64,000 bases of DNA from Xanthostigma xanthostigma. Lineage: Eukaryota; Arthropoda; Insecta; Raphidioptera; Raphidiidae. The notes under the pieces are model-generated. The model saw nothing but the letters and a program-made list of their open reading frames with translations, searched no databases and had not been told where the DNA came from. This document shows positions 719 to 50,950 of the stretch, piece by piece. A program made the translations under genes and the position numbers. Every line of letters begins with the position of its first letter. Position 1 is the stretch's first letter. The stretch is taken from positions 21,428,509 through 21,492,508 of the forward strand of contig OY754475.1 of the NCBI GenBank assembly GCA_963575645.1. The letters are read 5' to 3'.

Positions 719-745
719 ATAAAAGGTGCCTCCATTCACGTAAGT
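719..745 (+). promoter_or_regulatory. Relic ZAD exon-1 end with splice donor (non-coding 5' exon)
   Basis: This stretch aligns with the last 21 nt of ZAD exon 1 plus its donor (consensus ATGAAGTGTGCTCCCGTTCA, then GTAAGT). Here GTGCCTCCATTCAC is followed by the donor GTAAGT at 740-745. No ZAD coding sequence survives upstream. A matching acceptor AG lies at 991-992, just before the start codon at 1004. It probably acts as the donor of a non-coding first exon. Confidence 0.6.
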
Positions 746-1003
746 TAATACAGACGTTTTCAATCATGATTTGAAACAGTTACATGTTAAAGGAGACATT
801 AAAATGTCGAACATTTTGACTCGTTGTAAGATTATTTTTTGAATTGCATTGTTTGTTATATTTAATAGTGTAAATTACTTATAAAATCATTGTTTGCATA
901 AAAAGTATCTCGATATCAAAGAACTAATAAAAAAATTGTCATCTAAAATTGATTTGTGTACAACTTTTTCAATTCTTAACACCCTGTTTTAGTTGAAGCA
1001 ATA

Positions 1004-2194
1004 ATGGAATCTGATTATTCAAAACAAGTATCAGTGGATCCTGAAATCCCATTAAAATACGAAATTAAAAAAGAAGACACTACAATATCAACAGATTATA
1101 AGCCTTTGAACAGTATCGAAACAGTTTGGTTAAAAACTGCTGAACAAGTTTCGATAAAAACTGAAAATGTTGATGAAGAATTCAAGATTAAAGAAGAACC
1201 GGCGGACGACGATTCAGTATATCAAAACGTTGCTGAAACAAATGAATATTCAGTTGTTAAGCATGAATATGATGATACCGATGTGAAGTTGGAAACAGAT
1301 GCCAATATATTCAGCAACGGTAACGATTTTACAGATATACAAGATCACTTCATATTAACACACGGTCCCAATGAACACGAGGAGGTTAATGTACCCAAAG
1401 CACAGGAAAACAGCATCAAGATTACAAAATTGGTTTACTGTGACGTTTGCAATAAGTCTTTCACAAGATCTAGTAGCTTGGCTAACCACAAACGATTACA
1501 TACCGGCAAGAAACTATACAAATGTGAATTTTGTAATAACGTTTTTTCTCAATTGTCGAACTTAAAAAAACACAGACTACAACATACTGGTGAGAAACCG
1601 TTTCAGTGCGATATATGCCTCAAGGGTTTCACACGATCAAGTAGCTTGAGGGATCATAAATTTTTACATACCGGTGAGAAACCGTATAAGTGCAAGTCTT
1701 GCGATAGTAGTTTTACTCAGTTCTCGAACCTGCACAAACACGAACTGCAACATACTGGTGAGAAACCGTACCAGTGTGACGTTTGCAATAAGTTTTTCAC
1801 GCGGTCACGTAATTTGACAGATCACAAACGAATACACACTGGCGAAAAACCGTATAAGTGTAATTTATGTAATAAAAGTTTTACTCAGATGTCTAACGTA
1901 AAAAAACATCAATTGCAACATACCGGTGAGAAACCTTTTAAGTGCGACACTTGCAACAAGTGTTTCACGCGATCGAGTACCTTGAATGATCATAAACTTT
2001 TACATACCGGTGAGAGACCGTATAAGTGCAGCTCTTGTGATAATCGTTTTATTCAGCTATCTAACTTAAAAAAACACGAACTTAAGCATACCGGTGAGAA
2101 ACCGCATCAGTGTGATATTTGCAAGAAATGTTTCACCCGTTCAAACTATTTACGTGTACATGTTTTACAACATGCTCAGGAAAAGCTGGAATAA
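1004..2194 (+). CDS. C2H2 zinc-finger protein, 9 fingers, ZAD-less
   Basis: A 396-residue probable nuclear DNA-binding regulator. Residues 1-145 are acidic and carry the cluster's shared leader motifs: IETVWLK, IKTE, IKEEPADDD and VKLE. Nine canonical C-x2-C-x12-H-x3-H fingers run from about residue 146 to 390 with TGEKP linkers. Fingers alternate between two types: odd ones have FTRSSSL-like helices and even ones FTQLSNL-like helices, so the array grew by copying a two-finger unit. The ATG at 1004 (MESD) follows a good acceptor at 991-992 and begins like other ZAD-less genes here. The coding part is one exon; an upstream non-coding exon is inferred at 719-739. Family and fold are certain; the DNA target is unknown. 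Confidence 0.93.
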   Translation: MESDYSKQVSVDPEIPLKYEIKKEDTTISTDYKPLNSIETVWLKTAEQVSIKTENVDEEFKIKEEPADDDSVYQNVAETNEYSVVKHEYDDTDVKLETDANIFSNGNDFTDIQDHFILTHGPNEHEEVNVPKAQENSIKITKLVYCDVCNKSFTRSSSLANHKRLHTGKKLYKCEFCNNVFSQLSNLKKHRLQHTGEKPFQCDICLKGFTRSSSLRDHKFLHTGEKPYKCKSCDSSFTQFSNLHKHELQHTGEKPYQCDVCNKFFTRSRNLTDHKRIHTGEKPYKCNLCNKSFTQMSNVKKHQLQHTGEKPFKCDTCNKCFTRSSTLNDHKLLHTGERPYKCSSCDNRFIQLSNLKKHELKHTGEKPHQCDICKKCFTRSNYLRVHVLQHAQEKLE

Positions 2195-3192
2195 CGGATG
2201 GTTTTAGGAAGACCCCTATAAATTAGTTACTTTTCATGTCTGTACTGTCAGATATACAAATATATACTTATTATGAAGTGAAAATCAGGTATTTTATTAC
2301 GAAATACGTGAAAAAAAATGCAGTATGTGTTTTGTTTGTAATATTATCATTAGAATGACTTAACACTCACTAAATCGCTCGTTATAACACTATGTCAGTG
2401 CTCGTGATAATCCTTTTCATTACAAACAAGATACATAAATTTTATTTATTTATTTACAAGTCTCCTTTTATTGCACAAATTGAGGTATACAAAAAAAATG
2501 TGTATAAAGAATACTTCTTACTAGAACGAACTCTATTATAGTTGCAGGTTGGACTTATTTAGCAGGCGCGGATCACAGATTTTGTGAAGGGCTCAATATT
2601 TTGTTTTAATTTTTTATATTTATTTAAAAATCGAGAATGACAACGTAAATATATTTGAATGCATTTTGATTTTGGGGGGTCAAAGTCTCAACTGCCTGGC
2701 TGAATTTTTTTCAAGCTACAAGAAACACATTACTATTCAAAATTCAAACTTTCAACAGACAGCACCGATGCTGATGGTCTCAGTTGTTTAGCGTCTATAA
2801 TCTAAGGCAGTGTCGAACTTGAGATTTATTATTTTTATTTATTATTAAACAAAGAAATGGTGTAAAAAATATGTTAATAAAATAAAACTAACATTTCACA
2901 ACAATAAAATAAAACTAACATTTCACAACGTTACAAAAGCTACATTTTGTTTTCATTACGTTTTCTGTACAAGGCTGTTACGCAAAAGTTTACTACTGTC
3001 TAAAACTTAGTGGTACTCAAACATTTTCAAGACAGTTGCAATGGGCTGGGACCATTTTTTGTTGAAAGTACGACAAATTAAAAATTAATATTGTTTAATG
3101 GTGTAAAACACATCATAGTAAAATAAACAATTAGTGTCAATATATAATTCATAACAGTTCTCAATTTGTGTGGATTATTGTTCAAACCGGAT
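2195..3192. other. Intergenic, A+T-rich, with a small tandem duplication
   Basis: This is the 3' flank of the first gene. At about 2879-2929 a roughly 25-bp segment containing aactaacatttcacaac is repeated twice in tandem. Near 2777 the text ctcagttgtttagcgtctat matches a motif seen again near 16690 (reverse) and 51215. No coding signal is seen. Confidence 0.4.
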
Positions 3193-3219
3193 ATGACATG
3201 TGCTTCCGTAAATGTAAAT
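3193..3219 (+). promoter_or_regulatory. Relic ZAD exon-1 end with splice donor
   Basis: ATGACATGTGCTTCCG is followed by a GTAAAT donor. The ATGACATGTGC part is identical to the end of the ZAD exon of the gene at 22326 (codons for MTCAPVQ). It lies 0.5 kb upstream of the gene at 3721. The matching acceptor is uncertain; an AG at 3680-3681 is a candidate. Confidence 0.55.
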
Positions 3220-3720
3220 AAAGCAGGACTTGATTTAATTTTTTTAATATTACCGTCGCTTCATTGGTTTACATCGGATGTGTAATTTCAAAGCACCGAT
3301 TTAAACTTCAAATTTTTGTTTGTACTTATGCCTTAGCGGTTAGGTGTGATGGCGTAATCGAAACATATGTTTAAAATTTTGAACTCTGATCACGGATTTA
3401 TAAAATTTGATAAATAATACGATAATTCAAGCAGATATAAAAAAACAGGTTCTTTGAAATACGTTGTCTTAGAATACTGTTTTTTTTTTATATTTCCGCT
3501 CCGCACACTACAGTTCGACAAATATAAAATAAGGTCAAGCTTTTACGTACAAACTTGCGTTTAAAATACTTTTAATACTTATTTTAATCGTCTAAATAAC
3601 TGGTTATAAAATATTAAACAACAATAACAAAATTTCAACACTGCAAGATATGTACAGTGTGTCAAAAATTTGAGTTAGCAGTGATTCATAATAAATAAAT
3701 TTAAAAATTGAACTCTTAAA

Positions 3721-4605
3721 ATGGACGCCGCGTCAACCGATCCTGAAAATTCCGACACAAACGTGAGCGAAAATCAACCGACAGACGAGGGCTGCGTAAA
3801 ATCGGAAGCTTTTCATAATGTCGAAACAGTATGGTTAAAAAACGCCGAAGAAAAACACGAGTTTCTGAACATCACTGATCTATTGCAAGTGAATATTAAG
3901 GAAGAACCATCGGACGACAGTTTGTACCAAACAAATGAAAATCAAGGCAGTGAAGGTGAAGCTGAAACAAATGAGAGTTCATACAGCAAACCGGAACACG
4001 ATGGTACCGACATGAAGTTTGAACTTTCGGACAGCGAACTGCTAGCAAATAAAAACAAATCGCGCAAATGTGACATTTGTCAGAAAAGATTCACGTATTT
4101 CAGCCAATTAGAGAAACACATAAGATCGCATACGGGCGATAAACCTTTTCAGTGTGAAATTTGTAACAAGAGCTTCACGCAGTTGAGCAATTTAAAATCT
4201 CACAAAATAACACACACAAACGAAAGGCCGCATCAATGTGAAATTTGCAGCATGTCTTTTAGCCAATCGAGTCATTTGAAATCGCATAAATTAACGCATA
4301 CCGGTGAGAAACCATTTCAATGTGAAATTTGTAACAAATGTTTCAAGTTGTCGAGCATTTTAAAGAGGCACAGAAAGGTGCATATCGACATAAAATCGTA
4401 TCAGTGTGACATTTGCCACGGATATTTCAAATATTTGGATAATTTAAGAAAACACAAACTTATACACACTGGCGCGAAACCGTTTCAATGTGACGTTTGT
4501 CACAAGCGTTTCACGCAATTAAGTTCTTTAAAAACACACAAAACTTCTCACTGTAGTAAAAGAAATATTAAATGCGACGTGTGCAACGATGATTTTACTG
4601 CATGA
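3721..4605 (+). CDS. C2H2 zinc-finger protein, 6 fingers plus a truncated seventh
   Basis: A 294-residue protein with the cluster's acidic leader (VETVWLK and NIKEEPSDDS in residues 1-115). Six complete fingers run from about residue 117 to 277. A seventh finger ends after its first half (CDVCNDDFTA, then stop). Fingers 1-4 use C-x-I-C knuckles (CDIC/CEIC), and the linkers are partly degenerate (TNERP, IDIKS). The start ATG gives MDAA, similar to the MDA start region near 45560. Sequence after the stop still holds battered finger text to about 4964, so the original protein was longer and its 3' end is decaying. It may still be functional with six fingers. Confidence 0.85.
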   Translation: MDAASTDPENSDTNVSENQPTDEGCVKSEAFHNVETVWLKNAEEKHEFLNITDLLQVNIKEEPSDDSLYQTNENQGSEGEAETNESSYSKPEHDGTDMKFELSDSELLANKNKSRKCDICQKRFTYFSQLEKHIRSHTGDKPFQCEICNKSFTQLSNLKSHKITHTNERPHQCEICSMSFSQSSHLKSHKLTHTGEKPFQCEICNKCFKLSSILKRHRKVHIDIKSYQCDICHGYFKYLDNLRKHKLIHTGAKPFQCDVCHKRFTQLSSLKTHKTSHCSKRNIKCDVCNDDFTA

Positions 4606-4964
4606 AATTATTTAGAGCAGCGCAAATCAATACATACTGGTGAGAAACCGGCGTGACGTTTGTCATGAAGATTTTACTTTGTCAATTTATTTTTTAATTA
4701 AAAAAATCAACGCATAAATGAAAAACCGTTTCAGTGCAGTCTGCGCAGTCAACTATTTCAAATATCCGCAAACGAGAATATAGATGGTTTTTTACGATTG
4801 ACCAATTAACAGACACGCTGTATATAAATTGGTGGGCGATTATAATAACTGTAGCGAACTATGTACAAAAGCATAAACTAATACATACCAATGACAAACC
4901 GTATATATTTATGACAACTGCAATAGAAGATTTAGTTATTAATAAATATATGTCAATGCACTAG
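4606..4964 (+). pseudogene. Decayed 3' finger remnants of the gene at 3721
   Basis: After the premature stop, recognisable linker text (catactggtgagaaaccg near 4632, aaaaaccgtttcagtg near 4720, cataaactaatacatacc near 4870) continues in changing frames with stops and indels. These are two to three former fingers of the gene upstream. A polyadenylation signal AATAAA at 5096-5101 follows. Confidence 0.75.
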
Positions 4965-5352
4965 TTATTATACTACTTTTATAAACAATTTTTATCATAT
5001 TTGTTAAAAATAATAAGTAAACATTTTTTTTTGTGTATCTATTTTGAAGTAGAGCATTGTATAATTTTTTTTTTTGTATTCGATTGCTATAGATAAATAA
5101 AATTTGTATTTAAACTTGTTTCTGTTTTTACATCCGGTAATCAAAATGACACAATCTTTCCCGTTATTCCGAAAATTCAAATTTTCTAATGTCCTCGAAG
5201 ATTATGATTTAAGTACATTTGGGGAATAATCGAATGATTATTAACAACGAAAGGTTACTACTCAAATGATTATATAATCGAATGATAATAATAATGTTCG
5301 TGCTATGCGTGAATTATTGTTTCAACTCTCGAATGAATTTATTTTCCAAAAC

Positions 5353-5850
5353 TCATGTATACAGGGTGTCCCACGACATGAGTGCCATAGGTTGGGACTG
5401 TGTTGATGGGGTGATTTCAAGTAAAAAATGTCTAATGAACATATATACCCATACGCTATCCTAACTGAGCTAGAAGCATTTGAAATTTTAGATAAGTAGT
5501 TGTAGGAATTCCCTACTAATTAAAAAACCATTTAAAAAGAAATCGCTTTATTGAATTAGTTGCTCAAAATGTCCACCCAGTTGCTGTATACATAGTCTAG
5601 CTCTTCTTAGAATTGAAGTGGTAGCTCTGCGAATAAATACTAATGGTGATTCACAGCCACCTGGTCTTTTTAATAATACCAAAACCAACAGCCGAACCTA
5701 ATACCTGCATTTGTGGGGTTACTTATCTAAAATTTCAAATGCTTCTAGCTCAGTTAGGATAGCGTTCCGGGTATATGTTCATTAAACATTTTTGACTTTA
5801 AATCACCACATCAGGCTATGGCAGTCATGTCGTGGGACACACTGTATATT
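5353..5850. mobile_element. Inverted-repeat element (MITE-like) with a transposase scrap
   Basis: The left arm from about 5353 (tacagggtgtcccacgacat) reappears inverted at the right end (to about 5849), and the pairing extends inward for about 140 bp per arm, including an inner block 'gagctagaagcatttgaaat'. The termini are flanked by TA. Between the arms, the reverse strand at about 5545-5600 reads RLCIQQLGGHFEQL, which resembles the C-terminal end of insect Tc1/mariner-like transposases. I infer a non-autonomous remnant; the family is uncertain. Confidence 0.7.
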
Positions 5851-6039
5851 GTGTCATGAAATTCACAGTATACCTACATATTTTCAAGTGCTGTAGGGTA
5901 AACACAACTATAGGCCGGATTGCAGAAAGCGTCAGAAATGTTTGTTATAACAATTAGATATTTCTTCATAAGAAAAGCAAAGTAGAACTTTTTTTAAACT
6001 TTTAATAACACTCGTGATCACCTAAGTGCAGATAATAAT
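5851..6039. other. Gene-free spacer
   Basis: No coding or repeat signal is recognised between the inverted-repeat element and the repeated segments that follow. Confidence 0.3.
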
Positions 6040-18685: not shown

Positions 18686-18686
18686 C

Positions 18687-19795: not shown

Positions 19796-19822
19796 ATGAA
19801 TTGTGCTTCCGTTTAGGTAAGT
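19796..19822 (+). promoter_or_regulatory. Relic ZAD exon-1 end with splice donor
   Basis: ATGAATTGTGCTTCCGTTTAG is followed by GTAAGT. Read as codons it gives MNCASV-stop, against MKCAPVQ in live ZAD exons: the Gln codon CAG has become TAG. The acceptor of the next exon is at 19925-19926. Confidence 0.7.
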
Positions 19823-22094: not shown

Positions 22095-22325
22095 GAAAAA
22101 TATTATCAATATTTACCGTGAAAATAAAATACACATGAAGGATTATTTTTATACTTTTACGTTATTTTCCTGCAAATTTAAAGGCAACGGATACAAATTT
22201 TAGGTAGGTCCTGGAAGTTATTTTCAATAGCGGCAACCGATCGACAGTGTGTTGCACCCTCTGTAAATATCAAGAGCTGGACATCAATCGATAGCTTGTA
22301 CAAACTTAGTCACTTTTGAATAAAA

Positions 22326-24869
22326 ATGGCAGAAATATCGATAAACGGACACGGTTTAAGTACAATGTGTCGGTTGTGCTTATCACGTGGTGTAACGCTA
22401 TTAGATATATTTTTTTTTTCAACCAAAATGGAAAACCAAGTCGCTGATGTAATCATGACATGTGCACCGGTTCAGGTAAGGTCGCATCAATGACACGCAT
22501 TATAAAATATTTTTTACACAACACAGTTGCCTACTGTGTATTTAATCATAATAAATTGATAATTTCTTTCTCGAATATTTTCTTACGCAAACTTATGAAA
22601 ATTGTATATGGATTTACAGAGAAAAAATTGAGATTTCAAAACATATACGTTGTCATTTGAAAAAAATGTATGTAGATACACTTCCGGTTGAGTTTGAAGT
22701 ACAAAAACAATATACCTCCGATAGTAAGTCACCAGTTGAACAAAAAGCTATTTAAACTTTTTTTTTGTATCTAGTAGGATACACGAATTATTCATTGTTA
22801 CTACTTTCAGTGAATACTCTGTGTATGTGAAAATATATTTTGTCAACTGTAAAGCTGCGTCCTGACTATGCCGATCGGCAAAGCTGCACTAGTGTTATCA
22901 GGCTGAATACGTTGTCGATCGTAACCCGCGCGCTGTCGGTCTACATCAAAGAAAGCCGAACCGACTTGCCTAGTGAAGACGCGTTTCGGCCAATCTCAGT
23001 CGACATTTGGTGTTTGTAGTAATCAAAATAACATCGTCATCTCTACTCATCTTGTCGAAACCGAACGCGAATACCGATTTCAAAGTGGCCATTCGGCTTT
23101 TTCACTCGGTATAGTCAAGACGCTTTTTATGTGGTCTTTTACAAGATGGTGATATACCTTATGTAAGTGCTATAATTCTGTCCCAGATTTCTAAACGCGA
23201 CGAAATGCCGGATCTCATCTGCCAATTATGCTACACTCAAGTGGAAAAAATTTACGCGTTCCAGACACAAGTAGTGCAGTCTGACAAAAGACTACGACGC
23301 TATCTAAAACAATTGGGTAGACCTGCCAAACAAACCAAGACCGAGTGTTCTCAGGAGAATTCTTCAATCAACGAAACAAATTCCGATATCACTGTTAAGC
23401 GTGAATCTAAAGAGCTTCATGACGTCATTGACAATATGACGGGACCGATGAACGGCAATTGTTCATTATCAGCAAAATGTGTTGATGACACTTTGTCAAA
23501 GAATGATTGCGCTGAAGACAGAATAATTGATAGTGGCGACATTAAATTGGAAGAAGACGCGAATGACTTCTGTTCAGAAAAAGAAACAGAAAAGATCGAC
23601 TCGGCAGACAGATTTAACGACGAATTGACATTAAAATCCGAATTACAGACTGGTAATCTTTTAATCCAACTAGGATACATTAACGATTCAGAAAGCACTT
23701 CGTCCAACTGTGAGGGCAGTGATCCCATCAGCGAAGATTTCGATCACAAATCGGAGAACTTCGCGAATCTTCCTTCTGGTGTTGTAAAGCATAATAAACG
23801 TGAAAAGAAAAAAGAGAATAGTACCAAAAACAAAAGCGGAATTAAAAGAACATATCAGTGTGAGTTCTGTGGCAAATGTTGTACTCATTCACATCATTTA
23901 AAACGTCACAAACGTGTACATACTGGTGAGAAGCCATATCGATGCGACATCTGTAACAGCCGTTTCAGTTTAATAGAAACATTAAAATCACATCAAGCTG
24001 TGCACACTCATGAGAGACGATATCAATGTGAACTTTGTAAAAAGACATTTCTATACAAAACTGGTTTGAAATATCATATACGCAGCCATACCGGTGTGAA
24101 ACCGTACCAATGTGACATTTGTGATAAGAGTTTTGCTCAGTCAACCCACTTAAAAAACCACAAACGTACACATACTGGCGCGAAACCACTTCAGTGTCCC
24201 GTTTGTGATAAGAGGTTCAGCGTATGGGGTTCTTTAAGAAATCATCAAAGTGTTCATATTACCGAGAAACCATTCCAGTGTGACATTTGCATGAAGGGCT
24301 TTACTATACAAAGATATTTAAATAACCACAAACTTATACACTCTGGTGAGAAACCATACCGTTGTGACGTTTGCGATAAGCGCTATAGCAGTGCTAGTAG
24401 TTTAAAAATTCACAATCGTAAACATTCTGACGTGCTACCATACCAGCGCGACGATGCCAAACAACGATTAAACGGTTCGGTCACTCGCAAACTTCAACAC
24501 AATGACAAGAAACCGCATAAGTGCGGCGTTTGTGGTAAGTGCTTTACCACTGCGTACCACTTAAAAGTCCACGCACGTACGCATACTGACGAGAAACCGT
24601 ATCAGTGTGACATTTGTAAGAGGTGCTTTAACCAGTTGAGCAACTTAAATTATCACAAACTGACACATACAGGGGAGAAGCCGTATCAGTGTGACGTTTG
24701 CGATAAGGGCTTTACTTTGTCGAGGAATTTAAATATTCACAAACGTACACATACTGGTGAGAAACCATATCAATGTGACATTTGTAAAAAGCGCTTTACT
24801 GTGTTAACCAGTTTAGTTGTACACAAATGCTTAGAAATTAAAGATACAGGCGTAACACCATGTCAGTAA
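22326..24869 (+). CDS. ZAD C2H2 zinc-finger protein, about 11 fingers
   Basis: Two exons: 22326-22475 (50 codons) and 23187-24869, phase 0, 610 residues. The ZAD has CRLC in exon 1 and CQLC after the splice (ISKRDEMPDLICQLC), ending in VQSDKRLRRYL. ZADs mediate dimerisation of insect zinc-finger factors. An acidic linker with psi-K-x-E motifs precedes fingers at about residues 275-596: seven fingers, then a degenerate one in which Cys is replaced (YQRDDAKQRL), then four more. Finger 1 has Cys in place of the core aromatic (KCCTHSHHL), and the last lacks its normal final His (HKC). The 711-bp intron carries an inverted-repeat element at 22852-23128. AATAAA lies at 24900-24905. Splice sites are a GTAAGG donor and a TCCCAG acceptor. 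Confidence 0.92.
22852..23128. mobile_element. Intronic inverted-repeat element (MITE-like)
   Basis: The left end gctgcgtcctgactatgccga recurs inverted at the right end (tcggtatagtcaagacgct). Arms are about 25 bp and total length about 277 bp. It sits wholly in the ZAD intron of the gene at 22326. Its interior is G+C-richer than the host intron. The superfamily is not assigned. Confidence 0.6.
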
Positions 24870-25762: not shown

Positions 25763-25789
25763 AATAACTGTGCATCCGTTTAGGTAAGT
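25763..25789 (+). promoter_or_regulatory. Relic ZAD exon-1 end with splice donor
   Basis: GTGCATCCGTTTAG is followed by GTAAGT. The Gln codon of the ancestral CAPVQ is TAG. An acceptor is likely at 26257-26258 (cttcacag). Confidence 0.6.
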
Positions 25790-28026: not shown

Positions 28027-28053
28027 TTGGAGTGTGCATCCGTTTAGATAAGT
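28027..28053 (+). promoter_or_regulatory. Relic ZAD exon-1 end with a destroyed splice donor
   Basis: GTGTGCATCCGTTTAG is followed by ATAAGT, where the other loci have GTAAGT. The invariant donor GT has become AT. This fits the broken gene that follows. Confidence 0.65.
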
Positions 28054-31310: not shown

Positions 31311-31337
31311 TTAAACTGTCCTACCGTTAATGTAAGT
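31311..31337 (+). promoter_or_regulatory. Relic ZAD exon-1 end with splice donor (weak match)
   Basis: GTCCTACCGTTAAT is followed by GTAAGT. It is weaker than the other relics but in the right place, with a strong acceptor gtttcag at 31566-31567. Confidence 0.45.
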
Positions 31338-32875: not shown

Positions 32876-32898
32876 ACACGTAGCCTAAATTTTACATA

Positions 32899-35352
32899 AT
32901 GGAAGAAGTATCGGCAAATATGTTCGATTTAAATACAACGTGTAGACTGTGTTTGTCAAAAGGCGTTGCGACGCTAGATATATTTGCCTTTTCAACGGCA
33001 ATGATGGACAAAGTAGCCGATGCCATTATGAAGTGTGCTCCGATTCAGGTAAATCACTTTTAAATTCTAATAGTTTAATAATTAACAGTTAATTCTTAAT
33101 TCTACTTAATAACTTTTGTGTCAAAAAAAGTATTATTACTAAAAACCATACAATTTTGTTGTACAAAATTGCATAAATTATTGCACAAATATATTTCCGA
33201 TTCTTAGATAACGAGATGCGATGAGATGCCAAATTTAATCTGCAATTCATGCAACACTCAACTGGAGAAAAGCCACCAGTTCCAGCAGCAAATAGTGCAG
33301 TCTGACCAGACACTGCAACGCTATCTACAGCAACTACGAACTACTAACAAACAAATCAAGGTTGAATGTTCCATTCAGGGGCCCTCCGAGGATTCTTTAA
33401 TTCATAACACTGATACAGATATCACGATGAAATGTGAATCTCCGGAATTTCAAGACGCGTCTGATATAAATATCAACGTAAAAGAAGAGGTGCCTTCAAA
33501 TCATAGTTCTGCAAACGCACTACACGAGGAATTATTTTTAAAATCTGAAATCAAAGAAGAACCGATAGATAATTATTCATCAGTTCCAGTCGAATGCACT
33601 GATAACTCAATAGATATTTTATCTGGGAGTGATGATTGTAAAACCAGCCGTGAAATTAAAAGAGAACCCTTAGATGTTAATTCATCAATTACAACGGAAT
33701 GCACTGCTAATTTAATAGACACTTCATCTGAGGGTGGCCAAGGAATTGAAGTCGAGTCAAAAAATTCAGAAATCGAACAACAATCGCATAACTTCACGTC
33801 CCGTTCTGAATTAACAGTGCATACTGGTGAGAAACCATATCAATGTGACGTTACTAATCAGTGTTTTAGCCAATCACAAGATTTGAAAAATCACCAACAC
33901 TTAAATACTGATGAGAAGCCATTTCAGTGTGACGTTTGTAAAAAGGGTTTCACTCGATCATATGATTTGCAAAAACATCAGCGCATACATACTGGTGAGA
34001 AGCCATTCAAGTGTGACGTTTGTAATATCTGTTTCAGAGAATCGCGTTATTTGAAAAAACATCAACGTGTACATACTGGTGAGATGCCCTTTCAGTGTAA
34101 TGTATGTAATAAGAGTTTCAGCGAATCAACACATATGAAAAATCACCAACGCGTACACACTGGTGAGAAACCATACCAGTGTGACGTTTGTAATAAATTT
34201 TTCAGCGAATCATCACGTTTAAAAGACCACCAACGCGTACATACTGGTGAGAAACCATACCAGTGTGACGTTTGTAATAAGCGTTTTAGAGAATCAGGTC
34301 ATTTGACAGGTCATCAACGCGTACATACTGGTGAGAAGCCATATAAGTGTGAAGTTTGTAATAAATGTTTCAACAAATCTGATACTTTGAGAAAACATCA
34401 ACTCATACATACTGGTGAGAAGCCGTATCAATGTGACGTTTGTAATAAGCGTTATAGAGAATCAGCACATTTGAAAGATCACCAACGCGTACATACTGGT
34501 GAGAGGCCATATCAGTGTGACGTTTGTAAAAAGGGTTTCACTCGTTCAACTGATTTGCGAACACATGAACGCATACATACTGGTGAGAAGTCGCATAAGT
34601 GTGACGTATGTAATAAGAGTTTCAGCACATCAGGTAATTTGAGAATACATCAGCGTATACATACTGGTGAGAAGTCGTATAAGTGTGACGTTTGTAATAA
34701 GTGCTTCACGACAAATGGTTCTATGGAAAGACATCAGCGTATACACATTGGTGAGAAGCCACATCAATGTGACGTATGTAATAAAAGTTTCAGCGAATTA
34801 GGTATTTTAAAAAGACATCAACTTGGACATACTGGTGAGAAGCCGTATCGATGTGACGTTTGTAATAAGTGTTTTGGATTATTAGCACATTTGAAAAGAC
34901 ATCAACGCGTACATACCGGTGAGAAGCCATTTCAATGTGAAGTTTGTAATAAGTGTTTCAGTAAATCAGACATTTTGAGATTGCATCAGCTCAAGCATAC
35001 TGGTGAGAAGCCGTACCGGTGTGACGTTTGTAATATGTGTTTCAGTGCATTAAACAATTTGAGAATACATCAGCGCATACATACTGGTGAGAAGCCATAT
35101 CAGTGTGACGTTTGTAATAAGTGTTTCAGTATTTTAGATACTTTGAAAAAACACCAACGTGTACATACTGGGGAGAAGCCATATCAATGCGACGTTTGTA
35201 ATAAAAGTTTCAGCGAATTAGGTAGTTTGAAAAGACATCAACGTGGACATACCGGTGAGAAACCATATCAATGTGACGTTTGTAATAAGTGTTTTAGACA
35301 ATCACAACAATTGAAAAAACATCAACGTGTACATACTGGTGAGAAGCCATAA
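32899..35352 (+). CDS. ZAD C2H2 zinc-finger protein, 17 fingers
   Basis: Exons 32899-33048 (50 codons) and 33208-35352, phase 0, 764 residues. The ZAD has CRLC (TTCRLCLSKGVATLDIFAFS) and CNSC (ITRCDEMPNLICNSC), ending IVQSDQTLQRYLQQL. The acidic linker has repeated VKEE, IKEEP and IKREP motifs. One degenerate finger (CDVTNQ, second Cys lost, last His replaced by Asn) precedes 17 canonical fingers at about residues 291-759, all with near-identical HTGEKPYQCDVCNK text. The frame stops in the linker after the last finger (TGEKP-stop); decayed finger text (cgcttgtaatatg) follows, so the array is 3'-truncated. It is a recent tandem copy of the gene at 35623. AATAAA lies at 35458-35463. Splice sites are gtaaat / ttcttag. 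Confidence 0.94.
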
Positions 35353-35622
35353 TTATATCACGCTTGTAATATGTAATTTGTTTAATTTGGCGATTGATAT
35401 TTTCGTTCTAGCAATGATGAATTATTTTTATCAGGACAAAACTTTTATATTAAGATTAATAAAAAATAAAGTAACATTAATATGTTTTTCAACTGTATTT
35501 TATTCTTTTGTAAATCCTTTTTAAGCGTGTCACCGGGGGCACACGACGGTGTTCAATGACATTTTTTTTTGCTATTGTCGTCAGTAAATTCTGACTCCAA
35601 GTGGAAGCCTAAAATTCACACA

Positions 35623-37613
35623 ATGGAAGAAGTATCGGCAAATACGTTCGATTTAAGTACAACGTGTAGACTGTGTTTGTCAAAAGGCGTTGCGACGCTA
35701 GATATATTTTCCTTTTCAATAACAATGACGGACAAAGTAGCCGATGTCATTATGAAGTGTGCTCCGGTTCAGGTAAATAACTTTTAATTGTTTATATATT
35801 ATAAAAATCATCATAGTTTAATAATGTACAGTTAACTCTTATTTTTGCGATAACTTTAGTGACCAAATGTGCATTATTATCAAAAAACAAATTATGCTTG
35901 TCGTGAGTGAATAAAATAGGTCGTTAGGTTAACTAAAAATATGTGATTATTATCATACTCTTTTGTTTTACAAAATTGCATAAATTATTGTACAAATATA
36001 TTTCCGATTCTTAGATAAGGAGATGCGATGAGATGCCAAATTTAATCTGCAATTCATGCAACACTCAACTGGAGAAATGCCACCAGTTCCAGCAGCAAAT
36101 AGTGCAGTCTGACCAGACACTGCAACGCTATCTACAGCAACTACGAACTACTAACAAACAAATCAAGGTTGAATGTTCCATTCAGGGGACCTCCGAGGAT
36201 TCTTTAATTCATAACACTAGTACAGATACCACGATGAAATGTGAATCTCCGAAATTTCAAGACGCGTCTGATATAAATATCAACGTAAATGAAGAGCTGC
36301 CTTCAAATTATAGTTCTGCAAACGCACTACCCGAGGAATTATTTTTAAAATCTGAAATTAAAGAAGAACCGATAGATAATTATTATTCATCAGTTCCAGT
36401 CGAATGCACTGATAACTCAATAGATATTTTGTCTGGGAGTGATGTCTGTAAAACCAGCCGTGAAATCAAAGAAGAACCCTTAGATGTTAATTCATCAATT
36501 ACAATGGAATGCACTGCTAATTTAATAAACACTTCATCTGAGGATGGCCAAGGAATTGAAATCGAGTCAAAAAAGTCAGAAATCGAACAACAATCGCATA
36601 ACTTCCCGCTCCGTTCTGAACTAATAGAAAATTTTACTAAACGTGAAGATGGAACCAAAAATACTTCGAAAATACTTCAAAAATATAAGTGTGATTTCTG
36701 TAATAAAGATTTTGCTTTTTTAAGTAAATTAAATATTCACAAGCGTGCCCATACTGGAGAGAAGTTATACCAGTGTGACGTATGTAATAAGAATTTTAGC
36801 CAAATAGGTAATTTGAAAAAACATCAGCGTATACATACTGGTGAGAAACCATACCAGTGTGACGTTTGTAATAAGTGCTTCCGTATTTTTGATACTTTGA
36901 AAACACACCAACGCGTACATACTGGTGAGAAGCCGCATCAATGTGACGTTTGTAATAAGCGTTATAGAGACTCAGTACATTTGAAAGAACACCGACGAGT
37001 ACATACTGGTGAGAAACCATATCAGTGTAACGTTTGTAATAAGGGTTTCACTCGATCAAATGATTTGCGAAGACATGAACGCATACATACTGGTGAGAAG
37101 CCGCATAAGTGTGACGTATGTAATAAGAGTTTCAGCGAAATAGCTATTTTGAAAAAACACCAACGTATGCATACTGGGGAGAAGCCATATCAATGTGACG
37201 TTTGTAATAAGTGTTTTGGATTATCAGCTCATTTGAAAAGACATCAACGCGTACATACTGGTGAGAAGCCATATCAGTGTGACGTTTGTAATAAGTGTTA
37301 TAAAGACTCAGTACATTTGAAAGAACACCAACGAGTACATACTGGTGAGAGACCATATCAGTGTAACGTTTGTAAAAAGGATTTCACAAGATCAACTGAT
37401 TTGCGAAGACATGAACGCATACATACTGGTGAGAAGTCGCATAAGTGTGACGTATGTAATAAGAGTTTCAGCGAATTATGTATTTTGAAACAACACCAAC
37501 GTATGCATACTGGGGAAAAGCCATATCAATGTGACGTTTGTAATAAGTGTTTTAGAATATCAGCACAGTTGAATAAACATCAACGTATACATACTGGGGA
37601 GAAGCCATATTAA
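35623..37613 (+). CDS. ZAD C2H2 zinc-finger protein, 11 fingers (tandem sister)
   Basis: Exons 35623-35772 (50 codons) and 36015-37613, phase 0, 582 residues. ZAD and linker are almost identical to the gene at 32899, as are the intron end (ttccgattcttag) and the 3' flank, so the pair arose by recent tandem duplication. Only 11 fingers are present (about residues 276-576). Fingers 4-7 (DSVHLKEH, TRSNDLRRH, SEIAILKKH, GLSAHLKRH) are repeated as 8-11 (DSVHLKEH, TRSTDLRRH, SELCILKQH, RISAQLNKH), a four-finger block duplication. The frame ends TGEKPY-stop in a linker, as in its sister, so the truncation probably predates the duplication. The donor is gtaaat. Confidence 0.94.
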
Positions 37614-38257: not shown

Positions 38258-38284
38258 ATTTTCTGCGCTCCCGTTGAGGTAAGT
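38258..38284 (+). promoter_or_regulatory. Relic ZAD exon-1 end with splice donor
   Basis: TGCGCTCCCGTTGAG is followed by GTAAGT. The CGCTCCCGTT core equals that of the live ZAD exon at 53239 (TGCGCTCCCGTTCAC). The acceptor gtttcag is at 38747-38748. Confidence 0.65.
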
Positions 38285-40013: not shown

Positions 40014-40040
40014 TGGGCGTGTGCTCCCGTTCAGGTAATT
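40014..40040 (+). promoter_or_regulatory. Relic ZAD exon-1 end with donor, upstream of the THAP gene
   Basis: GCGTGTGCTCCCGTTCAG is followed by GTAATT. TGTGCTCCCGTTCAG is identical to the end of the ZAD exon at 57767-57916. It lies 95 bp upstream of the THAP gene start, and a matching acceptor is not obvious. Confidence 0.6.
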
Positions 40041-42446: not shown

Positions 42447-42473
42447 ATTAAATGTGCTTCCGTTCACGTTAGT
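42447..42473 (+). promoter_or_regulatory. Relic ZAD exon-1 end with splice donor
   Basis: ATTAAATGTGCTTCCGTTCAC is followed by GTTAGT. It sits between the THAP gene's last exon and a truncated finger gene, for which it would be the 5' exon. Confidence 0.6.
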
Positions 42474-42820
42474 AATAAAATTTGCTAAACAGTAATGCCA
42501 GGATAATATTAACCAACAGCGGAAATTTTTATTGATTAAGTTGTGTTTAAGTTTGTCGTACCTATAAGTTTCTTCGTATATAATTCACTGGTGGAATATT
42601 CGGAAGTTATTTTTTTATTGATAATTTAATAAAGCTTTAGATTTAAAAAAAAGATCTCCCACTAATTCTGAACCTACTATAAACGCCGTAGAAGATATAA
42701 AAAGTTAAAAAAAACCGATGAAATGATATCAGAAAAATCGATAAAAAAACAAAGTTATGGGAAAAATCGATTTGCAGTCAGTCCATAAAAAACAGGATCC
42801 TGCAAAGAACTGTTAAACAA

Positions 42821-45074: not shown

Positions 45075-45101
45075 AATGTGTGTGCTTCCGTTTAGGTAAG
45101 T
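45075..45101 (+). promoter_or_regulatory. Relic ZAD exon-1 end with splice donor
   Basis: GTGCTTCCGTTTAGGTAAGT, identical over 20 nt to the relic at 19803-19822. The acceptor of the next exon is at 45544-45545 (tttttttcag). Confidence 0.7.
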
Positions 45102-45545: not shown

Positions 45546-45658
45546 AATGTTGCTTCAAAATGGATGCCAGAATTAAAAAAGAAAATGCTCGGGTCAAATT
45601 TTTTTAGGGAAATCAGAACAGACCTCTCTTGCACACTCGACAAATTTCGATAGTCATA
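45546..45658 (+). pseudogene. Abandoned original N-terminus of the gene at 45659
   Basis: After the acceptor, ATG 45560 opens MDARIKKENARVKFF and hits TAG at 45605-45607. The same frame then continues through HTRQISIVI into ATG 45659. The sister gene at 48275 is open across the matching region (MEAVSSKQNVSD to ITENVRLKTEQ). One in-frame stop has therefore pushed the start about 33 codons downstream. Confidence 0.7.
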
Positions 45659-47386
45659 ATGTCTGAAAATGCTGGATTAAAAACAGAACAAAGCTTAATA
45701 AAACGCGAAGATATGAACCCCACTGATGTACAGCACGTTAGTATAAAGAAAGAGTCAACAGACGATGATTTAATGTATCAAACAGACGTACAGCGAGGCG
45801 TCGAATACCCCATTGAAATAACTGACACTATTTTTATTAGACAAGAATATTCCGGGTTGAAGTTAGAAACAAGTGCAAGTGTAACTGACAGTGTTTTTAT
45901 TATACAAGAACATTCCGGCGTGAAGCTAGAAACAAATGGATCGTTTAACGATAACAATACGGTAGGCGGCCATGATGAAAACACTGATGTGAAGCCAGTT
46001 ATAGATCCTGGACTAAATCACTGTTGTGACGTTTGCAGCAATTCATTTACTGATTTTAACGAACTCGATAAACATAAGCTATCGCACGGTGTAAATAAAA
46101 ACAGAAAAACACACAAGTGTAACATTTGTGAGAAAACATTCCCGCGTCCTTCCAGGTTAAAGAAACACGAACTTACACACGAACTTGCGCATACACCCCA
46201 AAAATCGTATCAGTGTAACATTTGTGAGAAAACATTCCCGCAGGCTTTCAGGTTAAAGAAACACGAACTTACACACACACACCAAAAACCGTATCAATGT
46301 GGCATTTGTGACAAGAGATTTGCTAGCTTGTCGTCATTAAGAAACCATAATCGCATTCGTACCGGTGAGAAACGTTATCAATGCTATGTTTGTCAAAAAA
46401 GTTTTTCAGACAATTGCGCTTTCAGGAGACACACAGCAGAGCACAACAAAAATTATAAGTGTAATGTCTGTGAAACTTTTTTCACAAGTCACGGGGCTTT
46501 AAAGTCACACAAGCTAGAGCATAGATTTAAATGTGATATGTGCGAGAGAAGCTTTCCACTATTAGTAACTTTAAACAATCACAAGTTCCTCCACGACGAA
46601 ATTATCGATCGAAAACCGTTTAAATGCGATCTTTGTGAAAAGGCTTTTTCACAAAATTATTCATTAAAAATCCATAAACGTACGCATACAGGTGAGAAAC
46701 CTTACCCGTGCGGTATTTGTGACCAGAGTTTTTCGGATACTCGTAAACTGAAAAAACACAGAGACGAGCACGATGACACCAAACAATTTAAGTGTGACGT
46801 TTGTGCAAAAAGGTTTGTCCAGTTCAGTGATTTCAAGTTGCACGAGCGACGTCACATTGAAGACACACCGTTTAAATGTGACGTGTGCCAAAAACGGTTT
46901 ACCGGAACGGAAACTTTGAAGAAACATAAACGGGTCCATACCGGCGGGAAACCTTTTGAATGCGACCGTTGCGAAAAAACTTTTCGCTCGCCGAGTTGTC
47001 TAAAGAGACACAAACAAACACACTTCGGCGAGGATCTGCATTTGTGTGAGTTTTGCGGCGAACTGTTCGCGCGATCGTTTGATTTAGAACAACACAAACT
47101 TGTACATACAGGCGAGAAACCGCATAAGTGTGACGTTTGCAGTAAGCGGTTTAAGCTGCGCGATAAATTTGAAAAACACAAACTTGTGCATGCCGGGCAA
47201 AAACCGCACGTGTGCGATATCTGCGATAAGTTGTTCTGGCGAGAGAACGAGTTCAACAAGCACAAACTAGTAAGAAACTGTGGTAAGAAACCGCACAAAT
47301 GTGATGTTTGCAGTATGCGATTTAGGTGGAACGTTACTTTACAAATGCACAAACGAGCGCATAATACAGTACAGGCTGTAGATTGA
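45659..47386 (+). CDS. C2H2 zinc-finger protein, 16 fingers
   Basis: A 575-residue protein from ATG 45659 (MSENAGLKTEQ). A TTG ten codons earlier is not a plausible start. The leader includes SIKKESTDDDLMYQTD and an internal tandem repeat (TDTIFIRQEYSGLKLET then TDSVFIIQEHSGVKLET). Sixteen finger units follow from about residue 123. The fourth has Arg for its last His (HNRIR), and the fifteenth ends HKLVRNC. A longer spacer (ELAHTPQKS) separates fingers 2 and 3. Linkers are diverse, unlike the uniform arrays near 33-37 kb. It is a sister of the gene at 48275 (shared KLETN-SFNDN leader and HLCEFCG finger). Beyond the stop, linker text (catacatgtgagaaaccaca near 47430) remains from a further decayed finger. 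Confidence 0.9.
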   Translation: MSENAGLKTEQSLIKREDMNPTDVQHVSIKKESTDDDLMYQTDVQRGVEYPIEITDTIFIRQEYSGLKLETSASVTDSVFIIQEHSGVKLETNGSFNDNNTVGGHDENTDVKPVIDPGLNHCCDVCSNSFTDFNELDKHKLSHGVNKNRKTHKCNICEKTFPRPSRLKKHELTHELAHTPQKSYQCNICEKTFPQAFRLKKHELTHTHQKPYQCGICDKRFASLSSLRNHNRIRTGEKRYQCYVCQKSFSDNCAFRRHTAEHNKNYKCNVCETFFTSHGALKSHKLEHRFKCDMCERSFPLLVTLNNHKFLHDEIIDRKPFKCDLCEKAFSQNYSLKIHKRTHTGEKPYPCGICDQSFSDTRKLKKHRDEHDDTKQFKCDVCAKRFVQFSDFKLHERRHIEDTPFKCDVCQKRFTGTETLKKHKRVHTGGKPFECDRCEKTFRSPSCLKRHKQTHFGEDLHLCEFCGELFARSFDLEQHKLVHTGEKPHKCDVCSKRFKLRDKFEKHKLVHAGQKPHVCDICDKLFWRENEFNKHKLVRNCGKKPHKCDVCSMRFRWNVTLQMHKRAHNTVQAVD

Positions 47387-47975: not shown

Positions 47976-48002
47976 ACAGTGAGTGCTGCCGTTCAAGTAA
48001 AT
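47976..48002 (+). promoter_or_regulatory. Relic ZAD exon-1 end with splice donor
   Basis: GAGTGCTGCCGTTCAA is followed by GTAAAT. The acceptor gattttttttag ends at 48161. Confidence 0.55.
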
Positions 48003-48274
48003 TAGTTTTATTTGCATGCTGTTAAAATTTACCGAAAACAATATCGTACACACTTTATTATACAATTTTACTTATATCGCGATCTCGTAAAATTCAATAA
48101 TAATGTATTTTTTCTAAACATTCAAATCTGCTAAATCAAGTTCACTGGCCGATTTTTTTAGTGTAAAAAATAATTGAAGTGCTTATATTATTAACAGATA
48201 AAAAGCCCTGGCATTGTAGAGTGTCAAATTTAACAAAAAATTTAGACCGTTTAAAACAAATTTACTGTTTGAAC

Positions 48275-50056
48275 ATGGAAGCTGTGTCTTCGAAACAAAA
48301 TGTTTCGGACCGCGAAACGTCTGTGATCACAGTAAAATGTGAACACGCAATAGAAGATCGCTCGTCTATCATCGACTATACTTTTTTAAGTATCACTGAA
48401 AATGTTCGATTAAAAACAGAACAAAACACAATAAAATGCGAAAATCTGGACGCCCAAGCTGTAAAAGACGAGCCAACAGACGACGACCAATATCAAACTA
48501 GTGAACACCAACGCGGTGAATACCCCATTGAAATAACTGACAGTCATTATATTAAACAAGAATATTGCAGTGTGAAGTTAGAATCAAGTGAATCTTTTAA
48601 CGATAACAGTACAATAGACGGTCATAACGAACGATTTAAATGTTTTGACGACACTGATGTGAAGCCAACTACAGATCAGCATTCTGACATTGGCGACAGT
48701 ACTTTTACTGATTTTAATGAACTAGAAAACCATAACATAATCAAAAACGCTAACACTCTCAACTGTAACGTTTGTGGGAAGACTTTCACGCGCGTGTCTA
48801 ACTTAAGAAATCATCAACGACTCATACACACGTCGGAAAAAAGGCACCGATGTAGCATTTGTGGAAAGAGATTTACTCGCTTGTCGTCGTTAAAAAATCA
48901 TAATCGCATTCATACCGGAGAGAAACCTTATCAATGCGACGTTTGCCAAAAGAGTTTTTCGGACAGCTGCAATTTTCGAAGACATACTTTAGAGCACAGC
49001 GACAGTAAAAAGTACAAGTGTGACGTTTGTGAAAAAAGTTTCACGCTGCAGTGTCTTTTTAAGGTTCACAAGCTAAGACACGTCGAAGATAGACCGTTCA
49101 AATGTGATACGTGCGGAAAATGTTTCACGCAACCGTACACCTTAAAAAAACATAGGTCGACCCACGACGTCAGCGTGCATCAAAAACCGCATAAGTGCCA
49201 TTTTTGTGAGAAGGCATTCGCTCGGTTAGATTCATTAACGACCCATAAACGTATACATACCGGGGAGAAACCGTTTCAGTGCGACGTTTGCGATAAGAGT
49301 TTTTCAGATTACCGTAATTTCAAAAGACACACAGTTGATCACAATCGCAAAAAGCAATTTCAATGCGACTTTTGTGAAATTTTTTTTCCGGAATTAAGCG
49401 GTTTAAAGGCACACGTGTTACAGGAACATAACGATCATACTGTATTTAAACGTGATATGTGCGAAAAAATCTTTTCACAATCGAGCACTTTAAACAACCA
49501 TAAGTTACTCCACGACGTCGCTATTGATAAAAAATCGTATAAATGCGACCTTTGTGAAAAGACTTTTGCCCGCTCGGATTCATTAAGAATCCATAAGCGT
49601 ATTCATACTGGGGAGAAACCTTTTCGGTGCGATGTTTGCGACAAGAGCTTCTCAGATCAGCGCAATTTCAAGAGACACAGAGTCGAGCACGATGACACAA
49701 AACAATTTAAGTGTGACGTTTGCGCAAGAAGTTTTGCGCAATTTCGTATTTTTAAGTTGCACGAGCTACGACACGTCGAAAACAAGCCGTTCAAATGTGA
49801 TATTTGTGGAAAAAAATTCACACAGCCGAGGAATTTGAATAATCATAAAAAACTTCATGCCGGCGTGAAACCGTTTCAATGCGATCGCTGTGAGAAAAGT
49901 TTTATCATCATGTCTGTTTTGAAAAAACATAAACAAACACATGCCGGAGAGGATCTGCATCTTTGCGAGTTTTGCGGTAAACAGTTTGGGCGACAGGTTG
50001 ACTTAAAACAACACAAACTTGTACATACCGACGAGAAACCACATAAATCTACGTAA
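48275..50056 (+). CDS. C2H2 zinc-finger protein, 15 fingers
   Basis: A 593-residue protein from ATG 48275 (MEAVSSKQNVSD). The upstream frame extension starts with GTG and crosses the acceptor at 48160-48161. The leader has ENVRLKTEQ (drifted ETVWLK), VKDEPTDDDQ, YIKQEY and VKLE. A dead finger (HSDIGDSTFTDFNELENHN) precedes the array; its sister at 45659 keeps the cysteines there. Fifteen finger units run from about residue 164 to 584; the ninth lost its first Cys (FKRDMCEK). Three fingers share FSD..NF-RH cores, placed regularly within the array. The end PHKST-stop replaces the HKCDVC of the next finger, so the array is truncated compared with the sister gene. Confidence 0.9.
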   Translation: MEAVSSKQNVSDRETSVITVKCEHAIEDRSSIIDYTFLSITENVRLKTEQNTIKCENLDAQAVKDEPTDDDQYQTSEHQRGEYPIEITDSHYIKQEYCSVKLESSESFNDNSTIDGHNERFKCFDDTDVKPTTDQHSDIGDSTFTDFNELENHNIIKNANTLNCNVCGKTFTRVSNLRNHQRLIHTSEKRHRCSICGKRFTRLSSLKNHNRIHTGEKPYQCDVCQKSFSDSCNFRRHTLEHSDSKKYKCDVCEKSFTLQCLFKVHKLRHVEDRPFKCDTCGKCFTQPYTLKKHRSTHDVSVHQKPHKCHFCEKAFARLDSLTTHKRIHTGEKPFQCDVCDKSFSDYRNFKRHTVDHNRKKQFQCDFCEIFFPELSGLKAHVLQEHNDHTVFKRDMCEKIFSQSSTLNNHKLLHDVAIDKKSYKCDLCEKTFARSDSLRIHKRIHTGEKPFRCDVCDKSFSDQRNFKRHRVEHDDTKQFKCDVCARSFAQFRIFKLHELRHVENKPFKCDICGKKFTQPRNLNNHKKLHAGVKPFQCDRCEKSFIIMSVLKKHKQTHAGEDLHLCEFCGKQFGRQVDLKQHKLVHTDEKPHKST

Positions 50057-50110
50057 GTGTTTGAAACAAACGCTTTTCGCGGCATCGTGACAAAAACAAA
50101 CAAAACTCGA

Positions 50111-50311
50111 ATACTTAACACTCCTATATTGCTAGTAGGGGTCTGTAAAAGGATGACAACACAACGGTGCACACATACATACGTCTGTCTCCGTCAACAC
50201 TTGCTCATAACGAATCGAGTATAAATAAGTGAGATAGAAGTATGCAGATGCTGTCTTGTGGTCGGCAAAACTCCCACTTGCGCGAACAAGCAATATAGGA
50301 GCATTAAGTAT
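50111..50311. mobile_element. Inverted-repeat element (about 200 bp)
   Basis: atacttaacactcctatatt followed by gc at 50111-50132 is matched inverted at 50290-50311, with two mismatches. The interior has no coding sequence. MITE-like; it lies just behind the gene ending at 50056. Confidence 0.5.
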
Positions 50312-50923
50312 ATGATAAAACTACTGTACAGTAGTTAGACTTTGGAGTGAGGTTAGAAAACGATGATAGAAATCTATTAAGTTTCGCGATTTTAAATAGT
50401 TTAACTTTGATGAATTTTGTATTCTTGTTATAGAAAAAAATAAAAATAGAAAAACATTTTTTGAGCATCAGATTATTACCTATGAATTTTATGTATCAAA
50501 ACCAACTCTTTAAATATCAGATTAATTTTTTACATTGCTTACGGAATGTGAAACAGTTAAAATTTTGATTTTTAGGGCTGGTTTACGACTTTTTTTGTTA
50601 TTGTTTTGTATTTCGCGGGACCCTCGGCTAGAATTCTTATAAGAAATAATAATATTTGACTCACCAGTAATCTGCAGCCAAGTCTCGTCAGCACCTGCAA
50701 CAAAAAAAAAAACAGACATCAGTATTCGGAACTCAAAGTTCTAAATTGAAAATCAAGTTGTCAACGAAAATTTCAATTATTGAATAAAATATTTTTTTTT
50801 GTGGCTATAAGTACGCAAACAAAAATATTTCGACAATAATTTTGTTTGTACGTTTGATTCAAAACATTTTTTGGTAAAGAGAAAAATACAAACAATATAT
50901 TATGTGTTGAATTTATAAGTCTC
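50312..50923. other. Gene-free region
   Basis: Apart from the candidate minus-strand microexon at 50665-50694, nothing is recognised. Confidence 0.3.
50665..50694 (-). other. Candidate 30-nt microexon
   Basis: On the minus strand a T-rich tract and CAG acceptor, a 30-nt block, and a GTGAGT donor are seen. Phase 1 reading gives ADETWLQIT. It matches the block at 11547-11576 in length, borders and partial sequence. It is either a repeated small exon of an unidentified minus-strand gene or a repeat fragment. Confidence 0.3.
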
Positions 50924-50950
50924 ATGGAGTGTGATTCTGTTTAGGTAAGT
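50924..50950 (+). promoter_or_regulatory. Relic ZAD exon-1 end with splice donor
   Basis: ATGGAGTGTGATTCTGTTTAG is followed by GTAAGT, readable as MECDSV-stop against MKCAPVQ. The acceptor ttattcag ends at 51382. Confidence 0.65.

Follow-up and report, generated by a model that had tools for sequence, protein, structure and literature searches.

In the window analysed here, which is the whole 64,000-nucleotide (nt) stretch C12:21,428,509–21,492,508 (contig OY754475.1) of the 623-Mb assembly of Xanthostigma xanthostigma in 28 contigs, twelve C2H2 zinc-finger genes without a ZAD domain are each preceded by the decayed end of a ZAD-coding exon, followed in eleven of them by a GT splice donor. 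These genes have probably lost ZAD and kept the dead exon as a leader, whose conserved end would act together with the donor in precursor messenger RNA. In the proposed course of events, the ZAD dimerisation domain would have been lost through point changes and small deletions within its two exons, and exon 1, its intron and, where it could be aligned, the acceptor would have been retained, so that exon 1 and the start of exon 2 would have turned into an untranslated leader. Translation would begin from a new ATG, which in the clear cases lies at the former ZAD end, and TGTGCTNCCGTT plus the donor would constitute a sequence-specific exonic signal that helps to define the leader exon. All relics and live genes compared are paralogues within this one genome.

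Identification of the twelve sites

A weight matrix trained solely on five live ZAD exon ends (33028, 35752, 53365, 57896 and 60473) was applied to both strands of the window. The sequence-only reading had listed twelve strings of 27 nt, comprising 21 exonic and six donor letters, and all of these were located on the forward strand where it had placed them, ranking 7th and 9th–19th among 127,948 positions. The remaining ranks of the top 19 were taken by the five training sites and by the live ZAD ends 22455 and 55984. The lowest-scoring of the twelve reached 15.0, versus 6.8 for the next window position. In 40 order-1 resamples of the window, the best score averaged 9.5 with a maximum of 15.9, so that sites 31311 (15.0) and 47976 (15.7) are not secured by score alone; their position ahead of a finger array supports both. 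When only the exonic 21 nt were scored, the twelve sites ranked 7–29 among window positions, with eight above the mean resampled best (12.3) and three above the highest (18.7), and this weaker separation means that single-site significance derives largely from exon end and donor jointly. Along the forward strand, 19 sites and 19 C2H2 arrays alternate one-to-one, each site having an array downstream on the same strand; by the pattern used, the window contains 172 fingers on the forward strand and none on the reverse strand.

Within the 27-nt segment, numbered from offset 0, offsets 6–26 are conserved across the twelve sites, with a mean pairwise identity of 0.79. The flanks show an identity of 0.31 in the 60 nt upstream and 0.31 in the 63 nt downstream, where 0.276 is expected by chance. 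The conserved block consists of 15 exonic nt, roughly TGYGCNNCCGTTNAN, plus the donor, neither the ATG nor the Lys codon of live exons being retained. Gibbs searches with widths of 8 and 12 in the 150 nt upstream and of 10 in 90 nt of the intron returned no further common motif above resampled controls. Recognisable ZAD homology at the twelve sites is confined to the last 21–27 nt, and a weak longer match at 719 (positions 38–126 of the hidden Markov model, 9.7 bits) disappears once the motif is excluded.

Retention of the 5' splice site, as asserted by the sequence-only reading, holds at 11 of the 12 sites for GT and at seven for the exact GTAAGT, and fails at 28027, which reads TTTAG-ATAAGT. 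The replacement of the Gln codon by TAG in five copies (19796, 25763, 28027, 45075 and 50924) was confirmed, as was the loss of the ZAD coding part: the four-Cys ZAD, with one CxxC in exon 1 and another in exon 2, was not found at the twelve loci. As to the proposed live consensus of ATGAARTGYGCTCCCGTTCA followed by GTAAGT, ATGAARTGYGCTCCCGTTCA is exact in three of the seven live window exons and GTAAGT is present in three of the seven. The exon end had also been placed one base too early; the exon takes in the complete Gln/His codon (phase 0).

Descent from ZAD genes

A second cluster of 200 kb on the same contig (C12:17,396,001–17,596,000; cluster 2) contains 37 sites, all on the forward strand, which were assigned by CRLCL to 33 ZAD-less relics and four live ZAD genes; 17513885, which carries CTIC with the rest deleted, was counted as a relic. 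A forward-strand C2H2 array precedes the next site after each of the 37, and arrays without a site of their own comprise three on the reverse strand and two small ones on the forward strand. The last codon is a stop in 19 of the 33 relics.

Full alignments to the four live exons were made for 16 of these 33 relics, and a decayed ZAD exon 1 was visible in every one of the 16. A 4-nt gap within the CRLC codons is common to 15, and 17404282 has a 7-nt gap there in its place. The latter is also alone among the aligned relics in having an ATG where the live gene 17563666 starts, the remaining three live genes of the cluster starting at other columns. Ten relic second exons were tried, two of which gave no start by search string and were excluded; the other eight align with live ZAD exon 2 and keep its acceptor, with CTGCTAG in five and another TAG or TAA at the same codon in three.

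In these eight relics of cluster 2, the protein begins at the last ZAD helix, where live AGTCGGACAAGACA is matched by relic ATGTCTGACAAAACA and QSDKTL has become MSDKTL. In the window, the start of the 719 locus, ATGGAATCTGAT, corresponds to GTGGAATCTGAA in the live gene 53365; starts of the MESD type occur at 719, 19796 and 25763, and of the MSS or MSE type at 31311, 38258 and 45075. On C5, the ZAD exon of a further relic (L053) is broken by a different deletion, as judged by eye. The decayed first and second exons of the cluster-2 paralogues, the C5 relic and the starts of some ZAD-less proteins within the former last ZAD helix support the earlier proposal of descent from ZAD genes, and the twelve loci are classed as descendants of ZAD zinc-finger (ZAD-ZNF) genes, not as ZAD-ZNF genes. 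Two types of start, together with the different deletion in L053, suggest that ZAD may have been lost more than once independently.

Just upstream of the lost start, many of the aligned cluster-2 relics (L031–L050) bear, by eye, an inverted-repeat-bearing stretch similar to GAGAAATTATTTTTCTCAACAT, which is possibly a promoter.

Constraint on the exon end

Parsimony changes per column were counted for the 33 cluster-2 relics on a tree built from flanking DNA only. The flanks average 4.9 changes per column (over sparsely gapped columns, 103 upstream and 41 downstream), and the exonic core at offsets 6–17 averages 1.4 (Mann–Whitney p = 3.7e-6 vs upstream), with free positions at offset 12, inside the core (6 changes), and at offset 20 (8 changes). 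The donor columns show 0, 1, 0, 2, 1 and 4 changes. Once 260 nt upstream were included, TGTGCTNCCGTT showed 1.4 changes per column versus 5.6 overall, and the slowest 12-nt spans among the 293 kept columns were GTGTGCTCCCGT (1.33) and TGTGCTCCCGTT (1.42), that is, on TGTGCTCCCGT(T); spans reaching the donor start at 2.08, and the best elsewhere has 2.5 with many gaps. The 12 letters TGTGCTNCCGTT thus appear to be under purifying selection about as strong as that on GTAAGT.

For comparison with coding sequence, 84 live MKCAPV(Q/H) ends were selected without reference to the synonymous positions in the Ala, Pro and Val codons. Their Pro codon ends in G in 33 cases, in C in 28, in T in 21 and in A in 2, versus in C in 44 of 45 relics (Fisher p = 5e-14), and among unique 15-mers this base is C in 31 of 32 relic and 12 of 26 live sequences (p = 1e-5); these Fisher p-values overstate independence, as relics of one cluster share ancestry, and the tree-based count allows for such kinship. 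Judged from these letters, the constraint on the exon end is not explained by coding. An independent function of the donor segment, which had been offered as one of two explanations, gains support here: the slowest-evolving stretch of the leader lies where nothing is coded, and the constraint is absent from the live codons.

In the genome as a whole, TGTGCTNCCGTTTA has 39 matches versus 9 for the reversed control, with N-GT next in 27 of the 39 versus 1 of the 9. The 12 matches that lack a neighbouring GT are close in number to the 8 of the control, so that persistence of the core apart from a donor is not detectable.

Genome-wide occurrence

The 21-nt pattern, with up to two mismatches, has 1,008 genome matches (475 + 533), versus 102 (49 + 53) for the reversed pattern, and the profile is therefore not equally frequent in unrelated DNA; equal frequency there was what the sequence-only reading had named as fatal to it. 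Exact matches numbered 86 among the matches listed, and 25 of the 30 that were fetched are live ZAD exons with the CxxC...C pattern. Among the other fetched matches, L004 is relic-like and has fingers, L006 and L018 retain the tail of the ZAD exon alone, L002 has a broken CRLC part, and L024 looks like a chance occurrence inside another gene. A genome search with Pfam zf-AD (PF07776) yielded 1,338 candidates at first look; 150 of these were scored and every one passed the cut-off, which indicates that the ZAD family of this genome is very large. For Drosophila melanogaster, 91 ZAD-ZNF proteins are cited in PMC9810180.

Outside this genome, a query with a single ZAD exon returned no homologue in other organisms at E 0.001 among 32 candidates, and neither the exact 21-mer (one form) nor a ZAD relative was found in IMG/VR. 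Protein hits included lepidopteran ones among many from vertebrates and other groups, which does not establish the lepidopteran source assumed by the sequence-only reading. A seven-sequence profile retrieved five short ENA fragments, all five with Val directly after CAPVQ; in these protein letters, the Val reads as the start of a GT-type intron would. P0084 carries CAPIQ and, together with the fragments, suggests that CAPVQ is a broader feature of ZAD proteins.

At C13:16.9–17.7 Mb, at least 18 copies of TGTGCTTCCGTTTTAGTAAGT occur, some of them paired about 1.4 kb apart. One member of this family (L051, C13:16914386–16916186) has no C2H2 finger within its 1.8-kb piece, and the TGTGCTTCCGTTTTAGTAAGT 21-mer is the live ZAD end in a C6 copy (L052).

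Interpretation and alternative explanations

Several observations weigh against retention of the dead exon as a leader with a signal acting in RNA. At the window's twelve sites, no ZAD sequence can be detected ahead of the 27 nt, as nhmmer without the motif finds only the seven live exons above noise, and three of the nine listed window starts (3193, 47976 and 50924) are unlike the types found at the ZAD end, which the other six resemble. In the aligned cluster-2 relics, the net length change from the gap to the donor is divisible by three in 3 of 16. The core is kept at two sites where GT is gone (28027 and 17532554), and in cluster 2 the core is degenerate in all four live ZAD genes. Codon choice at the 84 live ends, with GCT for Ala in 76 and GTT for Val in 78 versus 32% and 44% in the open reading frames (ORFs) of the window, speaks in favour, in that the exon end may have held a splice-related signal before the domain died, but this bias was measured on tandemly amplified, non-independent genes. 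Finally, 12 fixed letters make a longer and stricter signal than known exonic enhancers.

The strongest alternative, which we consider rather unlikely, accepts the same descent and takes the 12–15 exonic letters as an element of double-stranded DNA, a promoter-proximal factor site that controls ZAD and ex-ZAD genes, with the donor being kept separately; the factor might perhaps itself belong to the numerous C2H2 proteins. A run of about 12 letters, strictly fixed except at a single base, would fit a long protein–DNA site, as would the one-to-one placement at the 5' end of each gene and the retention of the core at the two places with a dead GT. Such an element is, however, difficult to reconcile with the near-control rate of the core without adjacent GT across the genome, with the C, G or T tolerated at the third base of proline in live ZAD genes, or with the degraded cores in the four live genes of cluster 2. 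On balance, a role in RNA together with the donor seems preferable to a possible DNA-level site.

Pure inertia, by which recent tandem copying would carry along an old exon end without selection, is in keeping with the tandem paralogy of the genes and with the ZAD-killing gap common to 15 of the 16 aligned relics, but is highly improbable: the window flanks are near saturation, and on the flank tree the core changes 3–4 times less than the flanks, which contradicts inertia for the whole core. Continued translation of the segment, as a short upstream peptide or an N-terminal extension, has hardly more appeal. An ATG at offset 0 is kept in three of the twelve window relics, in two of them (19796 and 50924) as a closed 6-codon frame, but the other nine lack it, stops occupy the last codon in 5 of 12 copies in the window as in 19 of 33 in cluster 2, and, within the 150 nt read by eye, no frame spanning the motif is consistently both open and initiated by ATG. 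Superfamily-wide dosage control that preserves a small-RNA target could account for a near-invariant 12-mer common to relics and, less strictly, live ZAD exons; we attach very little weight to it, as the free positions 12 and 20 would be ill suited to uninterrupted pairing. Rfam gave nothing in the window at gathering scores, which says little on small-RNA targets. A recursive splice point in a long leader intron, that is, a joined acceptor and donor (YAG/GTAAGT) such as CTTCCGTTTAG/GTAAGT resembles in several copies, was rejected as scarcely credible, since G precedes GT in only 7 of 12 window and 15 of 33 cluster-2 copies (22/45) and the C, T or A found elsewhere as the last exonic base destroys the AG acceptor.

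For the retained leader exon, a tentative extension, to which we assign much less confidence, is that TGTGCTNCCGTT-NAN-GTAAGT may be a superfamily-specific extended donor, at which a trans factor (a protein or a small nuclear RNA) would gate first-exon splicing of hundreds of ZAD and ex-ZAD genes together. If so, loss of ZAD would leave the RNA-level address of this donor in place, and the beheaded genes would stay under the same control. The element makes coordinated control of a very large zinc-finger family directly testable.

Comparison with known systems

Exons of Xist reportedly derive from the Lnx3 gene, coding exons having turned non-coding, and the relics described here are similar in that a dead protein-coding exon appears to be retained as a non-coding one. 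They differ in that the gene remains protein-coding downstream, exists as many paralogues, seems to have undergone the change repeatedly and has a constrained end of precisely 12 nt. Vertebrate KRAB zinc-finger clusters include KRAB-less members, which likewise lost an effector domain and kept their fingers among tandem C2H2 paralogues; we know of no conserved splice-end relic of this kind among them, though no search aimed at one was made. The promoters of clustered protocadherin genes carry a conserved sequence element of about 20 nt, which likewise recurs as a single copy for every gene of a tandem cluster; unlike that promoter element, the relic stops exactly at a splice donor and is derived from codons.

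A transcription-factor family can thus, on this reading, shed its N-terminal domain and yet keep its expression unit, with intermediates visible in one genome: the exons of the domain would become a leader, and a codon at the domain end becomes a start. Precise non-coding constraint at a coding exon end is revealed only where the codons died. ZAD-less paralogues of the same origin could go unnoticed in other insects.

According to PMC9810180, insect ZAD-ZNF genes show lineage-specific expansion, tandem clusters and shared intron positions; divergence of ZAD genes among flies is treated in PMC4351887. The genes of the window resemble ZAD-ZNF (zf-AD, PF07776) genes in their C2H2 arrays, tandem clusters, shared intron positions and lineage-specific expansion, and differ in the copies without a readable ZAD, whose two exons appear to serve as leader. 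A full-text literature search, which did not cover many subscription papers or any bioRxiv preprints, returned no paper whose listing pointed to such ZAD relics.

Features of the window

The relic sites, the live ZAD exons and the new start of the 719 locus are listed in Table 1. When the seven live genes were joined in silico, the frame remained intact across the phase-0 intron, with a single terminal stop in each. The exon 2 from 33208 matches the C-terminal half of Pfam zf-AD at 24.4 bits, against a cut-off of 28. Behind the twelve relics, the finger ORFs are open over 169–736 amino acids.

Table 1. Relic ZAD exon ends, live ZAD exons and a new translation start in the window.
Feature	Position	Strand	Context
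Relic ZAD exon end, donor GTAAGT at 740	719..745 (15-nt exonic core 725–739)	+	Leader of ORF 980–2194
New start ATGGAATCTGA... of 719 locus	1004..1018	+	Corresponds to GTGGAATCTGA in live gene 53365 (last ZAD helix, VESE)
Relic exon end, donor GTAAAT at 3214	3193..3219	+	Leader of ORF 3712–4605
Relic exon end (TAG), donor GTAAGT at 19817	19796..19822	+	Leader of ORF 19911–22094, fingers in frame with DDE transposase
Live ZAD exon 1, open frame, CRLCL...IMTCAPVQ	22320..22475	+	Exon 2 from 23187
Relic exon end (TAG), donor GTAAGT at 25784	25763..25789	+	Leader of ORF 26248–27318
Relic exon end (TAG), donor lost (ATAAGT)	28027..28053	+	Before ORF 28615–30825
Relic exon end, donor GTAAGT at 31332	31311..31337	+	Leader of ORF 31571–32284; lowest score of twelve
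Live ZAD exon 1, open frame, IMKCAPIQ	32884..33048	+	Exon 2 from 33208
Live ZAD exon 1, open frame, IMKCAPVQ	35560..35772	+	Exon 2 from 36015
Relic exon end, donor GTAAGT at 38279	38258..38284	+	Leader of ORF 38731–39429
Relic exon end, donor GTAATT at 40035	40014..40040	+	Leader of ORF 41412–42266
Relic exon end, donor GTTAGT at 42468	42447..42473	+	Before ORF 42722–43231
Relic exon end (TAG), donor GTAAGT at 45096	45075..45101	+	Leader of ORF 45608–47386
Relic exon end, donor GTAAAT at 47997	47976..48002	+	Leader of ORF 48167–50056
Relic exon end (TAG), donor GTAAGT at 50945	50924..50950	+	Leader of ORF 51372–52475
Live ZAD exon 1, open frame, IMKCAPVH	53227..53385	+	Exon 2 from 53482
Live ZAD exon 1, open frame, VMKCTSVH	55846..56004	+	Exon 2 from 56088
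Live ZAD exon 1, open frame, IMKCAPVQ	57692..57916	+	Exon 2 from 58132
Live ZAD exon 1, open frame, AMKCAPVH	60344..60493	+	Exon 2 from 60718

The locus at 28027–30825, in which the donor GT has become AT, looks like a decaying gene, its N-terminal coding part apparently lying, by eye, in a different frame from the fingers; the ORF behind 42447 likewise appears by eye to be truncated. ORF 19911–22094 joins three C2H2 fingers in frame to a transposase of the pogo/Tigger type (HTH_Tnp_Tc5, full-length DDE_1 and CENP-B_N), which makes a host–transposase fusion gene possible; convincing terminal inverted repeats were not found in 20300–22440 around it. Motifs of the form [IV]K.E (IKCE, NIKQEP) are repeated, by eye, in the N-terminal parts of ZAD-less ORFs, for example those at 980, 19911, 26248 and 45608, and such repeats are present in the linkers of both ZAD and ZAD-less proteins, where they resemble the SUMO attachment consensus. 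The 15 kb at 4700–19700 contain no C2H2 fingers and no ORF over 115 amino acids, and a short peptide pattern (ENTTSAIFT and similar) repeats at 9595–10330.

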